In this document: positions 29,250 to 34,971 of the stretch, one piece after another
Numbering within the stretch: the stretch's first letter is position 1
Layout: every line of letters begins with the position of its first letter
Assembly: GCA_017857245.1 (NCBI GenBank)
Contig: JAFMDO010000007.1
Coordinates: forward strand, 1-38,321
Source: Pontimonas sp.
Lineage (GTDB): Bacteria > Actinomycetota > Actinomycetes > Actinomycetales > Microbacteriaceae
Length of the DNA stretch: 38,321 bases
Direction: 5' to 3'
Position numbers and translations under genes: made by a program
The notes under the pieces: model-generated
The model's database searches: none
Seen by the model: the letters and a program-made list of their open reading frames with translations, nothing else
What the model was told of the DNA's origin: nothing

Positions 29250-30164
29250 ATGTTTGTTATCGCAGCACCCGGACAGGGATCACAAAAGCCAGGGTTTTTG
29301 GAACCCTGGCTTGTACACGAAGAACATCGTGCCACCCTGGAATCCTTTTCCCAGGCCGTCGGTATTGACTTGGTTCTCCACGGCACCCGCAGCGATGAAG
29401 CCACCATCAGGGACACCGCCGTAGCACAGCCTCTGATTGTGGCAGCGGGGCTCCTGACCGGTCGAGCACTCCTCGCTGGCCTTCCCGCGGGTACTCCTCT
29501 GGCTTTTGCCGGCCATTCCGTCGGTGAATTCACCGCCGCCGCGCTCTCTGGTGTTCTCTCGGATGAGGAAGCGCTGAAGCTGGTGGCTGCGCGAGGCGCT
29601 GCCATGGCGGTCGCTTCTGCCCTCACTCCCAGCGGGATGGCCGCTGTGTTGGGGGCTGACCCTGAAGAGCTCCCCTCCGAACTGGAAGCACGGGGGCTTT
29701 CCGCGGCAAACTTTAACGGGGGCGGCCAGATCGTGGTTGCGGGATCTCGAGAGGCTTTGTCCGAATTTGCGGCGAATCCGCCGGTCGGGACACGAGTAAT
29801 CCCTCTGCAGGTAGCAGGCGCATTCCACACCGCTTTCATGGAGACTGCCCTCCACGCGGTTTCTGACGCGGCCTCCGAGCTGGCACCCAAGGACCCTCAC
29901 CAGGCGCTCTATACCAACCGAGATGGCTCGGTGCTGACAAGCGGCAGGGACGCCCTTGCGTCCCTGGTCTCCCAGGTCACCCAACCCGTGCGTTGGGACG
30001 CGTGCATGGGGTCCTTTGAGAAAGATGGAATACAAGGCATGATGGAACTTGCTCCCGGCGGAGCGCTGGTGGGTCTCGCCAAGCGGGGCCTCAAGGGAGT
30101 GAACACTCTGGCACTGAATACTCCCGAAGACATTCCCCGAGCACGCGAAATGGTGGTTTCTTGA
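29250..30164 (+). CDS. fabD: Malonyl-CoA:ACP transacylase
   Basis: Loads malonyl groups onto acyl carrier protein for type II fatty-acid synthesis. The 304-residue protein has APGQGSQKPGFL at its N terminus, the nucleophilic serine in GHSVGE (about 90), the catalytic histidine in GAFHTAFM (about 193) and the NFNGGGQIVVAG segment. First gene of fabD-fabH-acpP-fabF; its stop overlaps the fabH start by one base (TGATG). Confidence 0.96.
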   Translation: MFVIAAPGQGSQKPGFLEPWLVHEEHRATLESFSQAVGIDLVLHGTRSDEATIRDTAVAQPLIVAAGLLTGRALLAGLPAGTPLAFAGHSVGEFTAAALSGVLSDEEALKLVAARGAAMAVASALTPSGMAAVLGADPEELPSELEARGLSAANFNGGGQIVVAGSREALSEFAANPPVGTRVIPLQVAGAFHTAFMETALHAVSDAASELAPKDPHQALYTNRDGSVLTSGRDALASLVSQVTQPVRWDACMGSFEKDGIQGMMELAPGGALVGLAKRGLKGVNTLALNTPEDIPRAREMVVS

Positions 30165-31165
30165 TGGCTCCTCTCACCCAATCCCATGGCACGGAGTTCA
30201 CCAGAATCCTCTCCCTCGGTGCTGCCAGGGGTGACACTTCGGTCAGCAACGACGAAATTGCTGGACCCATCGACTCTTCCGACGAATGGATTCGCCAGCG
30301 CACCGGAGTAATCGAGCGCAAGCGCTCCAGCGCTGATGAAGGGGTCATCGATCTTGCCCAACGCGCAGCCCAGGAAGCCATCACGGCGGCGGGAATCGAG
30401 TCCACCGATATCGGCGCCGTCATTGTGGCCACAATCAGCAACAGCGTCCAGACTCCCTCGTTGGCGGCACTGCTGGCTCACAGAATTGGCGCCACTCCGG
30501 CGGCTGCCTACGACATCTCGGCCGCGTGTGCTGGATACACCTATGGGATTGCCCAAGCAGACGCGCTGATCCGATCCGGTGCCGCGCGCTATGTCTTGGT
30601 CGTGGGGGCTGAGAAACTCAGCGACATCGTTGAACCTACCGACCGCAGTATTTCCTTCCTGCTGGGCGATGGGGCAGGTGCTGCGATTGTAGGCCCCAGC
30701 GACATGGTGGGAATCGGCCCCACCCAGTGGGGCTCCGATGGATCCAAGTGGGACGCCGTCGGCATGAACAAGACCCTCCAGGAGGCCTTCGCTGATCGCG
30801 ACGGCGGCTTCCCCACCCTTCGCCAAGACGGGCAAGCCGTCTTTCGCTGGGCGGTCTGGGAAATGGCCAAGGTGGCGAAGAAAGCGCTTGACGAGTCAGG
30901 GGTTTCTGCCAGTGAGTTGGCGGCGTTTGTTCCCCACCAAGCCAATATGCGCATCATCGATGAGTTCGCGAAACAACTGAAGCTTCCTGAGAGCGTACTG
31001 ATTGCCCGCGATATTGAAACCACCGGCAACACCTCGGCGGCGTCTATTCCGCTAGCCATGCACAGACTTTTGCAGGAGCACCCCGAAGCTTCCGGTGGTT
31101 TGGCTCTGCAGATAGGTTTTGGCGCCGGTCTGGTCTTCGGCGCGCAGGTCGTGACACTCCCCTAA
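30164..31165 (+). CDS. fabH: 3-oxoacyl-ACP synthase III
   Basis: Condenses an acyl-CoA primer with malonyl-ACP, starting fatty-acid chains and setting straight versus branched composition. The 333-residue thiolase-fold protein has the catalytic Cys in SAACAGYTYG (about 122), the His in PHQANMRI and the Asn in TTGNTSAAS. ATG 30164 overlaps the fabD stop; an in-frame TTG just before it (30161) would add one residue. Confidence 0.97.
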   Translation: MAPLTQSHGTEFTRILSLGAARGDTSVSNDEIAGPIDSSDEWIRQRTGVIERKRSSADEGVIDLAQRAAQEAITAAGIESTDIGAVIVATISNSVQTPSLAALLAHRIGATPAAAYDISAACAGYTYGIAQADALIRSGAARYVLVVGAEKLSDIVEPTDRSISFLLGDGAGAAIVGPSDMVGIGPTQWGSDGSKWDAVGMNKTLQEAFADRDGGFPTLRQDGQAVFRWAVWEMAKVAKKALDESGVSASELAAFVPHQANMRIIDEFAKQLKLPESVLIARDIETTGNTSAASIPLAMHRLLQEHPEASGGLALQIGFGAGLVFGAQVVTLP

Positions 31166-31226
31166 ACCCCAGGCTGGCTCTAAGATTGGAGCCGGTCACT
31201 GATAGACACACAGAAAAGAGAAACAC

Positions 31227-31475
31227 ATGGCTCACACCTCCGAAGAAATTTTGGCTGGACTAGCGGAACTCGTCACGGATGAGACCGGTATCGCTGGAGA
31301 CCAGGTCAGCATGGAAAAATCCTTCACCGACGACTTGGACATTGATTCGATCTCGATGATGACCATCGTCGTGAATGCCGAAGAAAAGTTTGATGTGAAA
31401 ATTCCCGACGATGAGGTCAAGAACCTGACCACTGTCGGCGAAGCTGTCACCTTCATCACCAAGGCTCAGGCCTAA
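31227..31475 (+). CDS. acpP: Acyl carrier protein
   Basis: Small acidic carrier of growing acyl chains on a phosphopantetheine arm. The 82-residue protein has the attachment serine in DLDIDSISMM (about 41). AAAAGAG lies a few bases before the ATG. A 61-base gap after fabH is the longest in the fab operon and may contain a processing site or weak promoter, which I cannot define. ACP is usually needed in excess over the enzymes. Confidence 0.98.
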   Translation: MAHTSEEILAGLAELVTDETGIAGDQVSMEKSFTDDLDIDSISMMTIVVNAEEKFDVKIPDDEVKNLTTVGEAVTFITKAQA

Positions 31476-31491
31476 TCCAGGTCCCCCGCAG

Positions 31492-32727
31492 ATGACCACC
31501 ATTGTCGTCACCGGTATCGGGACAACAAACCCACTCGGCGGCGACGCCGCCTCCACGTGGAGTGCTCTTCTTGCGGGTGAATCAGGCATCTCCACTCTGG
31601 AACATGATTGGGTTGCCCGACACCAACTGCCGGTCACTTTTGCCGGACAGGCCAAGGTGGCGGCAGTCGATATTTTGGAACGCCAAGAGGTTAAGCGCCT
31701 TGACCCCTCAGCGCAGTTTGCGCTGATCTCGGCCCGCGAAGCGTGGACGGACGCTGGTTCGCCAGATGTTGATCCCGAACGCATCCTTGTCGACTACGCC
31801 ACGGGTATTGGTGGGTTGTGGACGCTACTAGATGGTTGGGACACGCTCCGGGAGAAAGGGCCCAGGCGGGTCCTGCCGATGACCATCCCCATGCTGATGC
31901 CTAATGCCGCAGCGGCGGCAGTGAGCATGGGTCTGGGAGCAAAAGGTGGAGCACGGACCGTGGTGTCCGCCTGCGCTTCGGGAACAGAATCCATTGCCAA
32001 CGCTTACGAGCACCTTCAACTAGGACTCGCAGACATTGTGGTTGCCGGCGGAACCGAAGCAGTCATCCATCCCCTCCCCATTGCCGCTTTTGCCGCCATG
32101 CAAGCGCTGTCCAAGCGCAATGATGACCCCCAGAGAGCCTCCCGGCCCTATGACGCCAACCGCGACGGCTTTGTGCTGGGCGAGGGTGCTGCGACGTTGG
32201 TGCTGGAAACCAAGGAACATGCGCTTGCGCGTGGCGCACGGATTTATGCGGAGCTAGCCGGTGGGGCAATCACGAGCGATTCCTTCCACATCACCGCCCC
32301 GGACCCCGAAGGATTAGGGGCTTCTCGTGCGGTTATGGCGGCTCTGAAGCAAGCAGGCGCAACGCCAGAAGATGTCACCCACATCAATGCTCACGCTACG
32401 TCAACGCCCGTGGGTGATGTCGCTGAGTACGCCGCGTTGCACAAAGTATTCGGCGACCGCGTAGGAAATATCCCGGTCTCAGCCACGAAAGCCTCGACCG
32501 GACACCTGCTCGGGGGCACCGGGGCCTTGGAGGCACTGTTCACGATTCTCGCGATCTATCATCGCCAGGCTCCCCCCACCATTAACTTGGATGACCAAGA
32601 CGAGCGGATTCCCTTGGACGTGGTAACCAGCCCCCGTGACTTAGGTCCAGGAGCACAGCTGGGCATTAGTAACTCTTTTGGCTTTGGCGGCCACAACGCG
32701 GTTGTTGCCTTCCGGAGTGTGGACTAA
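31492..32727 (+). CDS. fabF: 3-oxoacyl-ACP synthase II
   Basis: Elongating condensing enzyme of fatty-acid synthesis. The 411-residue thiolase-fold protein has the nucleophile in VVSACASGT (Cys about 161) and the two histidines in NAHATSTPVGD and KASTGHLLGG, followed by the GFGGHN C-terminal loop. It lies 16 bases after acpP. Its TAA shares bases with the TAG of the convergent DUF3145 gene (CTAA, 32724-32727), leaving no room for a conventional terminator. Confidence 0.97.
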   Translation: MTTIVVTGIGTTNPLGGDAASTWSALLAGESGISTLEHDWVARHQLPVTFAGQAKVAAVDILERQEVKRLDPSAQFALISAREAWTDAGSPDVDPERILVDYATGIGGLWTLLDGWDTLREKGPRRVLPMTIPMLMPNAAAAAVSMGLGAKGGARTVVSACASGTESIANAYEHLQLGLADIVVAGGTEAVIHPLPIAAFAAMQALSKRNDDPQRASRPYDANRDGFVLGEGAATLVLETKEHALARGARIYAELAGGAITSDSFHITAPDPEGLGASRAVMAALKQAGATPEDVTHINAHATSTPVGDVAEYAALHKVFGDRVGNIPVSATKASTGHLLGGTGALEALFTILAIYHRQAPPTINLDDQDERIPLDVVTSPRDLGPGAQLGISNSFGFGGHNAVVAFRSVD

Positions 32728-33227
32728 CCCACTCGGTGAAACCACACCACACCGGTTTCTTCGCTGCAGTATCGAAACGGCTCCAGCTCGTCGTCCCATG
32801 CTCCGCCCCACGCCAGTCGCAGGGCCTTGGTCGTCAGGCGCGGGTCGCCACCGGCCTCGGCAAGGGCGGTCTTAACGCGATCTTCTGAAATCATCGTGTT
32901 CCCCGCCGTATCCATGGCGCCATAGAAAATTCCGAGGTCGGGGGTGTGCATCCAGCGCCCACCGTCCACACCGGGTGAGGGTTGCTCGCTGACTTCGAAT
33001 CGCAGATGTTCCCAGCCGCGCAAAGCGCTCGCCATCACACTTCCGGTGTTGATGGGACCTCGCCAGGGAAACTCGGCGCGAAGGGTGCCAGGCAACACGG
33101 GTTGGTCTTCCCAGGCGAGGTGGACGGGGCGACCCAGGCAGCGCCCTATGGCCCATTCGAGGTGCGGGCAGAGCGAAGGGGGTGAAGAGTGCACAAACAG
33201 CACCCCACGGGTTGTGGCAACAGCCAT
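32724..33227 (-). CDS. DUF3145 domain protein
   Basis: Actinobacterial protein of unknown function, 167 residues, with the family features RGVLFVHSSPPSLCPHLEWAI (shown without further extension), ALRGWEHLRFEV, EQPSPGVDGGRWMHTPDLGIFY in pieces, and the C-terminal WGGAWDDELEPFR. Commonly found next to fabF, so a role linked to lipid metabolism has been guessed from context only. ATG 33227 has GGAG seven bases upstream; the open frame to 33269 adds residues without family match. Soluble, no signal peptide. Confidence 0.9.
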   Translation of the reverse strand: MAVATTRGVLFVHSSPPSLCPHLEWAIGRCLGRPVHLAWEDQPVLPGTLRAEFPWRGPINTGSVMASALRGWEHLRFEVSEQPSPGVDGGRWMHTPDLGIFYGAMDTAGNTMISEDRVKTALAEAGGDPRLTTKALRLAWGGAWDDELEPFRYCSEETGVVWFHRVG

Positions 33228-33311
33228 AGTTTTCTCCGATTCCTGTGGTTCGACTTCCCCATCGACCATGGAATCGGGGTATTACTCGCCGCCTGAAAGC
33301 GGAATGCCCTT

Positions 33312-33341
33312 ATTATGCGGCAGGTTGGCTATGAAAAACAA
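33312..33341 (-). promoter_or_regulatory. Candidate promoter for the DUF3145 gene
   Basis: TTGTTT (33341-33336), 18-base spacer, CATAAT (33317-33312) on the minus strand, about 85 bases before the ATG. It lies between the DUF1684 stop and the DUF3145 start. Confidence 0.4.
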
Positions 33342-33348
33342 GTGAGGA

Positions 33349-34161
33349 CTAGCCGTGTAGCAGAGAGCCGTCTTTCTTCAGCACATTTTTTTCCCCAGCC
33401 TCAATGGCGAAGGGGAATCGGTTTTGCGCCGGCGGCAAGGGGCAGTTGAAGGCATAGGAAAAAGCGCACGGTGGCAAGACGGCGTAGTTGAAATCCAAGG
33501 TGATCGTGCCATCGGGGTTGGGCGCGAGAAAGAGAAAGCGTCCCACACTATACGTGCTGACGTCATTGGTGGCATCGGCAAAGACCAGCTGGAGGGCCGT
33601 GCCGGCTTTGAAGGCAGCTATCGAATACTCGGTGCCTTCATGGGTGAAGGTGATTTCACCAGGAATCACCTCATCTCTGGAGACACCCTCGTCCTTGAGG
33701 TGTTCAAATCCCACACTTTTACCGCCGGGGATTTCTTTCCACGCCCCGGTAATAACCCACTCGGGTGCATAGTCAAAGGCGTCAACGTTTCCGAAAGACT
33801 GGATGCCCTCTGAAGTGCTATCCCAGACCCGTAAGGCGTAGGAATCACCCTGAGCGATGACGTGACCCTTCTGGGTGTCGCCAAAGATCACCTCCGAAGG
33901 CTGATCTGAGCCTTTTGATCGAACCTCCACAGTCCCATCCACTGGGATACCGTCGACGGAAATCCCCTCGCTACCCGGTGCGGTAAGCATCAATGCCTGC
34001 ACGCCTTGCGGCGCTGGTGCCCAGGTTCCCGGCACTCCCCAAATAGTTTGTTCCATGTCCACCCACTGAGTGTTCACCAATGCGAGGGGACCTTGGGGCT
34101 GAATTGCCCCAAGGTTTCTGCGTTCACGAAATAACGCGAGCCGCTCCCCCGCTTCACTCAT
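33349..34161 (-). CDS. DUF1684 domain protein, likely co-transcribed with heliorhodopsin
   Basis: Protein of 270 residues of the DUF1684 family, function unknown. It has the diagnostic C-terminal features GRFLFLAPNPDGTITLDFN, PPCAFSYAFNCPLPPAQN and IEAGEK. No signal peptide or membrane helix is seen, so it is probably cytoplasmic and largely beta-stranded. It begins six bases after the heliorhodopsin stop, in the same direction, with only a weak ribosome site, so its translation is probably coupled to heliorhodopsin. Family members are widespread without rhodopsins, so the link is a hypothesis from context. Confidence 0.9.
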   Translation of the reverse strand: MSEAGERLALFRERRNLGAIQPQGPLALVNTQWVDMEQTIWGVPGTWAPAPQGVQALMLTAPGSEGISVDGIPVDGTVEVRSKGSDQPSEVIFGDTQKGHVIAQGDSYALRVWDSTSEGIQSFGNVDAFDYAPEWVITGAWKEIPGGKSVGFEHLKDEGVSRDEVIPGEITFTHEGTEYSIAAFKAGTALQLVFADATNDVSTYSVGRFLFLAPNPDGTITLDFNYAVLPPCAFSYAFNCPLPPAQNRFPFAIEAGEKNVLKKDGSLLHG

Positions 34162-34167
34162 GGGGCT

Positions 34168-34971
34168 TTAGTCGGTAAGGCCAGGAATAATCGACCCGGA
34201 GAACACCTGGTAAGCCAGCGCTGTCTTTGCGATCAAGCTCAGGGTGATGTACATGCGCTCGCCCCTGATGTAATCAACCCAGCTGCCGACCTGGTGGTAC
34301 TGCAAAGCCTGGTTGACGGCAAAAGTATTGAAAAAGAAGAACAGGGAAACGATAATGACCACGACGAAGGCGGGGGCTTCCACCGTGGACTGGGATCCAG
34401 GAGAGAAGAAGTAAATCAGAATCACAATCCAGGGCACAACCCCGGTCATGGATCCGAAGATGAAGGGCAAAAACCCACCGCTTCCGGGAGATTCATACTT
34501 TTCCTGTAGCGCACCAAACATGATCATCGACGCGTTCACCGCGAAGATCGAGAAGAGTGCAGCAACATCGGTGATTCCGGTGATCTGGGCGACAAGCCAA
34601 ATCATCACGGAGGAGCTCAGGGAGTATTCCGTCCAACGGAAGTAGTTGCGGTTTCGCTTCAAACCGTTTCCATAGCGGGTGAAGAACATGGGGGAGGAAA
34701 TAAGGAAGTGGAAGAACGCGGACATCGCGAGGAACGCTGCGACACCGATACCAACGTTGACGTCAAAGAGGATGACCCGCTCTGCCGGCAGATCTACACC
34801 GGGGGGACCCCCGAGGTAGTCGGCGGTCACGGGGAAGGTGACCTGGTCATCGAGAAGAGTGAGCACGTAGCCAAGGCCCAAAGCCTGGATGAGGTGCAGT
34901 GAGCCAGCGACGATATTGAACGTCCTCAGACGAGTGATTTTCTCGTCTATTGTCCTTTGCTTCTTTGCCAT
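34168..34971 (-). CDS. Heliorhodopsin
   Basis: Retinal-binding seven-helix membrane protein of the heliorhodopsin family (type 1-like fold, inverted topology with the N terminus inside). The 267-residue protein aligns closely with the founding member 48C12: retinal lysine in SLIAKTALAYQVF (Lys249), the counterion in RWTEYSLSSSVM (Glu115), and the two conserved histidines (His26 in SLHLIQ, His88 in FFHFLI). Conserved GALQEKY, GVVPWI, LQYHQVG and YIRGERMYI are also present. The Trp five residues after the lysine in 48C12 is Tyr254 here. ATG 34971 has AAAGGA upstream. Heliorhodopsins do not pump protons; a photosensory or enzyme-regulating role is proposed. No carotenoid or retinal genes lie in the window. 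Confidence 0.95.
   Translation of the reverse strand: MAKKQRTIDEKITRLRTFNIVAGSLHLIQALGLGYVLTLLDDQVTFPVTADYLGGPPGVDLPAERVILFDVNVGIGVAAFLAMSAFFHFLISSPMFFTRYGNGLKRNRNYFRWTEYSLSSSVMIWLVAQITGITDVAALFSIFAVNASMIMFGALQEKYESPGSGGFLPFIFGSMTGVVPWIVILIYFFSPGSQSTVEAPAFVVVIIVSLFFFFNTFAVNQALQYHQVGSWVDYIRGERMYITLSLIAKTALAYQVFSGSIIPGLTD

Follow-up and report, generated by a model that had tools for sequence, protein, structure and literature searches.

A heliorhodopsin (HeR) gene and a gene for a soluble DUF1684 protein were found as a tight same-strand pair throughout the HeR-bearing members of the marine genus Pontimonas (Microbacteriaceae). The pair was analyzed in a window of 38,321 nucleotides (the whole stretch of DNA studied, positions 1 to 38,321 of contig JAFMDO010000007.1, assembly GCA_017857245.1), and its features are listed in Table 1. 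Our preferred reading, which draws on analogy with studied HeR systems and is given a probability of about 0.42, is that the two genes form a co-translated operon in which the cytoplasmic face of HeR binds DUF1684 and changes its activity on illumination. Translation of DUF1684 in this two-gene operon would be coupled to that of HeR, and the coupling would cause the soluble protein to be made next to the membrane protein. HeR would act as a retinal-binding photoreceptor, not as a pump; its cytoplasmic side (the N-terminus and the intracellular loops) would bind the cytosolic two-domain DUF1684 protein, and illuminated HeR would alter the activity of its partner as reported with glutamine synthetase, photolyase and an ABC transporter. 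In Pontimonas, HeR would have been placed upstream of DUF1684 as an input module. We infer all of the single transcript, the physical binding, the light control and the redox role. The conserved pair, together with a look-alike arrangement in Microcella, is suggestive of a joint function of the two proteins but falls short of proof.

Table 1. Features of the HeR-DUF1684 locus (positions in the window).
Feature	Position	Strand	Evidence and remarks
HeR leader with Shine-Dalgarno-like AAGGAAA	34972..34995	-	Sequence reading
HeR, 267 aa	34168..34971	-	Profile search: PF18761, 303 bits (cut-off 26.7); NCBIfam HeR equivalog NF038020, 328 bits (cut-off 100); K249, E115, H26 and H88
Gap AGCCCC, 6 nt, HeR stop TAA to DUF1684 ATG	34162..34167	-	No ribosome site in the gap
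DUF1684 protein, 270 aa	33349..34161	-	PF07920, 125 bits (cut-off 25); FHA-like N-terminal fold, about residues 28-117; DUF1684 domain, residues 122-258; Cx7C pair C232 and C240
DUF3145 gene	32724..33269	-	PF11343, 205 bits; synteny
FabD-FabH-ACP-FabF cluster, convergent	29250..32727	+	Gene names presumed from sequence recognition; BLASTP homologues at the corresponding position in other genera

The first-pass annotation had described a HeR with Lys249, Glu115 and both conserved histidines, and each residue was present: K249 in TM7 (motif SLIAK), E115 as the TM3 counterion, H26 and H88. The window genome (1.28 Mb, 97.7% complete) contained one DUF1684 gene, one type-1 rhodopsin gene and two HeR genes, the second divergent. 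This second HeR (contig C76:60427-61158; L002 1489-2292, minus strand) has the retinal lysine, is adjoined by a divergently transcribed arginase-family gene, and has close relatives in genus g14 and in genome G018; it was also considered as a site of pairing, and no DUF1684 gene stands beside it. A search of the window genome for the retinal-forming BCD gene found none, a weak result since the positive control was likewise without a match, and this counts weakly against a role for light.

The junction reads ...GAC TAA AGCCCC ATG AGT..., with both genes on one strand, so the six-base spacing first described was borne out. The weak ribosome site that had been proposed before DUF1684 fared less well: 'weak' is a generous word, since there is none within the six nucleotides that follow the HeR stop. 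The AAGGAAA upstream of HeR is Shine-Dalgarno-like and gives HeR a ribosome site of its own; as DUF1684 has no such site in the gap, translational coupling of DUF1684 to HeR is likely from the sequence. The gap is too short for a promoter, and one inside the HeR gene is possible. Promoter and terminator scans and an Rfam scan of the locus returned nothing useful. Short intergenic gaps are common in streamlined genomes. In a genome of 1.28 Mb such a gap is by itself ordinary, and it is the conservation of the gap that exceeds chance.

That conservation was assessed in 19 Pontimonas genomes. HeR of this kind occurred in nine of them (10 copies, of which two belong to a single genome that is 10% contaminated) and DUF1684 in 13. 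Directly downstream of all 10 HeR copies, on the same strand, lay DUF1684, at gaps of -1, 2, 4 and 4 nt and, in six cases, 6 nt; the loci thus show what is expected of an operon (same strand, gap below 10 bp, kept across species) in 10/10 cases, at -1 to +6 nt. None of the 19 genomes held a HeR of this kind without DUF1684. A pair confined to the one strain, the outcome that the first-pass annotation had named as contrary to its proposal, therefore did not occur. At least five kinds of gene stood upstream of HeR (DoxX, a TetR regulator, a fatty acid desaturase, a toxin-antitoxin-like pair and an unnamed membrane gene), so conservation of a longer block does not by itself explain the shared junction, and that all 10 junctions are tight despite these varied neighbors counts for a partnership. 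Trees of HeR and of DUF1684 recovered the same two Pontimonas subgroups, with genome G005 apart, which indicates that the pair was co-inherited; this co-inheritance, and the lack among these genomes of any HeR of this kind without DUF1684, count in the same direction. Among the HeR changes specific to Pontimonas, two alter the charge of what is presumed to be the cytoplasmic face: Q to K at position 11 and K/R to H at position 226 (region borders were estimated by eye). Position 226 is K/R in 51/51 other HeRs of the family. These Pontimonas-only changes are compatible with a private partner and likewise count for partnership.

Four Pontimonas genomes (G001, G003, G006 and G011) carried DUF1684 followed by DUF3145 and no HeR, with other genes upstream of DUF1684; DUF1684 therefore does not need HeR, which counts against the proposal. 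G001 (locus L067), a single-contig genome, has DUF1684 and DUF3145 but no HeR at all. In the DUF1684 tree G001 was the sister of the HeR-bearing G005, so HeR has probably been lost at least once in Pontimonas, to judge from the sequences. The DUF1684-DUF3145 pair with a convergent FabF-ACP-FabH-FabD set is conserved across Microbacteriaceae (window 29250-34161; L195-L255), and DUF1684 was present in 349 of 400 genomes of the family. By these comparisons DUF1684 is older than and independent of HeR, and HeR is the newcomer, added upstream of the DUF1684-DUF3145 unit. As a side observation, the arrangement is a hint that DUF1684 and DUF3145 may be connected with the synthesis of fatty acids or with its regulation.

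These facts give room to a serious rival, almost as likely as binding between HeR and DUF1684, in which the two genes are co-expressed and the proteins never meet. HeR would have landed upstream of DUF1684-DUF3145 in the Pontimonas ancestor, its promoter would have taken over and the starts would have become coupled; the arrangement would then persist by descent and because breakage would stop expression of DUF1684. The family-wide DUF1684-DUF3145-fab arrangement, which exists without HeR, the other genes that take the upstream place in HeR-less Pontimonas, the general frequency of short gaps in streamlined genomes and the restriction of the pair with canonical HeR to one genus all fit this account. 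Set against it is the expected chance of even one adjacency of the kind seen in Microcella, a HeR-fold protein before DUF1684, about 4-7% (a rough figure that assumes about 60 independent placements), as is the behavior of HeR elsewhere in the family, where its neighbors vary even within a genus and no fixed neighbor was seen within several genera.

Outside Pontimonas the pairing with retinal-binding HeR was sought in two samples. DUF1684 was near none of 51 canonical HeR loci in 19 other Microbacteriaceae genera (inspected up to about 6 kb on either side, some loci being cut by contig ends). The difference between 10/10 and 0/51 gave a Fisher p of about 1e-11, a value for loci related by descent and not for independent events. 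Of 396 genomes sampled across the phylum, 109 had HeR, the window genome included; among the other 108 no DUF1684 lay next to HeR, and only 18 of them have DUF1684 at all. A general actinobacterial link between HeR and DUF1684 is ruled out by these two counts, which show no general rule and weigh against the proposal. The suggestion that the pairing might run across actinobacterial HeR loci thus failed in its broad form and held within Pontimonas; on present sequences retinal-binding HeR paired with DUF1684 is found only in that genus.

As an independent set, 80 loci were picked by DUF1684 similarity alone. They included canonical HeR in six Pontimonas loci and a HeR-fold protein in 13 Microcella-like loci (11 of them direct), and neither in other genera. 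A many-helix membrane gene other than HeR lay directly upstream of DUF1684 in 1/80 loci, which rules out that DUF1684 attracts any membrane protein to that place.

The Microcella arrangement was examined in the 17 genomes that these loci and the family survey gave between them, three of which were assigned to the genus by similarity. In 17/17 the orthologous DUF1684 has a HeR-fold protein before it, directly in 14, and this counts for the partnership; co-expression without contact does not predict that this position should hold a HeR-fold protein in a second genus, unless it was inherited. The family survey had returned nine Microcella genomes with a divergent HeR homologue upstream of DUF1684 on the same strand (seven direct, two with one gene between), and several of the nine have canonical HeR elsewhere. 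The DUF1684 proteins of these nine are 71-73% identical to that of the window. One gene separates the HeR-like gene from DUF1684 in three Microcella genomes, as at L129 6751-8364, where it has a choice-of-anchor I domain, and at the corresponding position of L136. The Microcella protein (L132 and kin) scored 66 bits against NF038020, below the cut-off of 100. Its model (pLDDT 88) had as best solved matches the heliorhodopsins 6su4, 6su3 and 6uh3, with TM scores of 0.82-0.84 (0.84 for 6su4). The lysine at the retinal position in TM7 was absent from the HeR-fold protein of every Microcella locus. Light is thus not needed for the arrangement, and the link between HeR and DUF1684 need not depend on it.

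In the HeR tree the Microcella proteins fell in a lysine-less clade of several Microbacteriaceae genera, apart from canonical HeR (100/100). This clade comprises L122-L148 (genera g5, g8, g31, g66, g76, g77, g78, g82 and g84) and the Microcella loci, and several of its members score close to the Pfam cut-off, on either side of it. Outside Microcella its members were not beside DUF1684, except for a Salinibacterium copy that lies some 3 kb upstream. No lysine-less copy was found in any Pontimonas genome searched. Descent of the Microcella protein by decay of the Pontimonas HeR was considered and is unsupported, since it groups with this separate clade, where its exact place is unsure because of long branches. 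Pontimonas and Microcella were sisters in a FabF tree (100/99; FabF lies near this locus and is not a neutral marker), and as sisters they may owe their two HeR-fold placements to one ancestral placement. The position before DUF1684 has thus either been held by a HeR-fold gene ever since the common ancestor of the two genera, with an exchange of that gene, or it was reached by two related genes separately. The same operon position would hold a retinal-binding HeR in Pontimonas and a retinal-free HeR fold in Microcella, and it is conceivable, if rather unlikely, that DUF1684 was retained as the partner and its sensor changed between light-sensing and non-light-sensing forms.

The Microcella proteins also bear on a second rival, in which the HeR fold is a light-independent membrane anchor that tethers DUF1684. 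Pontimonas would have kept retinal binding for other reasons, and the lysine-less protein would tether its DUF1684 likewise. Such an anchor would account for a lysine-less HeR-fold protein before DUF1684 in all the Microcella genomes, and in another system the partner site is reported to be formed by charged loops on the cytoplasmic side of HeR. We consider it improbable, since Pontimonas HeRs of this kind (median identity 84%) keep every retinal-site residue checked, as expected for a photoreceptor. Median identity in Microcella was 38% for the HeR-like protein against 84% for its DUF1684; divergence this rapid argues against the fixed interface that an anchor implies, and also speaks against a tight conserved interface there for HeR as a binding partner.

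The DUF1684 protein has no evident signal peptide on sequence reading and should therefore meet the cytoplasmic face of HeR. Both in sequence and in fold, its C-terminal domain matches the solved haloarchaeal proteins 2lnu, 2lok, 4dlh and 4fj4. The Cx7C pair was found in 80/80 DUF1684-centered loci and in 48/51 DUF1684 proteins of the family set (the other three are cut by contig ends or N-filled, and all complete copies have it), as well as in these haloarchaeal structures. What looked like a deletion in the copy of G013 proved to be a run of N in the assembly. Over the C-terminal half the predicted structure had modest quality (mean pLDDT 62). Residues 28-117 of the model matched FHA chains (VIA Z at most 7.2, values below 8 not being decisive; Foldseek probability 0.90), and no Pfam FHA match was obtained for the protein; the resemblance of the N-terminal part to FHA domains is suggestive only. 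HVO_1043, a DUF1684 protein of Haloferax volcanii, was classed among the thiol-relay genes on account of its conserved Cx7C and OxsR-bound promoter (PMC9426492). DUF1684 would have an older job that does not need HeR and that, by this analogy, is probably redox or thiol related. HVO_1043 and the four solved proteins share with the window protein a DUF1684 domain with Cx7C; the solved proteins are shorter (190-197 aa), match in sequence only over the DUF1684 part, and have no rhodopsin neighbor described.

HeR has been reported to bind and light-regulate adjacently encoded glutamine synthetase, photolyase and OmrDE (PMC9529153, PMC9769723, PMC11109279). These precedents, with Cx7C and HVO_1043, count for the proposed mechanism. 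For AbHeR and glutamine synthetase a Kd of 6.06 uM and light stimulation were measured (PMC9529153). The present pair resembles that system, which is likewise actinobacterial, in that HeR shares an operon with a soluble protein on the cytoplasmic side, but glutamine synthetase is an enzyme of known activity with measured binding, whereas the partner here is DUF1684. A same-strand HeR neighbor, there under one predicted promoter, is also what marks the ten groups of HeR operons in Cho et al. 2024 (PMC11109279), with DUF2177 and DUF2238 among them; DUF1684 is not one of the groups named. Under the strict criterion given in the main text of Bulzu et al. 2021 (PMC8612252), the same strand and a gap below 10 bp, HeR and DUF1684 would be counted as neighbors. 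That text also shows a thiol theme among HeR neighbors (glutaredoxin, glutathione peroxidase); DUF1684 is not named in it and may stand in Table S9 of the paper. In agreement with the first-pass annotation, which knew of no described pair, the literature searched yielded no paper joining heliorhodopsin with DUF1684 or COG3358, a listing in that neighbor table being possible, and none on lysine-less heliorhodopsins. The nearest likeness to the Microcella proteins, a rhodopsin fold without the retinal lysine, is among type-1 rhodopsins (Rh-noK and freshwater FArhodopsins; PMC10308929), of which FArhodopsin is kept beside a fixed partner gene, flotillin (PMC10308929). The Microcella proteins differ from these in having the heliorhodopsin (type-3) fold and in preceding DUF1684.

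The function of HeR is largely open and few partners have been tested, and a tight operon kept across a genus gives a new, small and testable partner. The lysine-less relative at the same locus permits a direct comparison of light-dependent and light-independent HeR function. If the sensor was indeed switched while the partner was kept, the HeR fold would be a general module for cytoplasmic partners, with light only one of its inputs. For DUF1684, a widespread family of unknown function, the pair with HeR would give a first handle.
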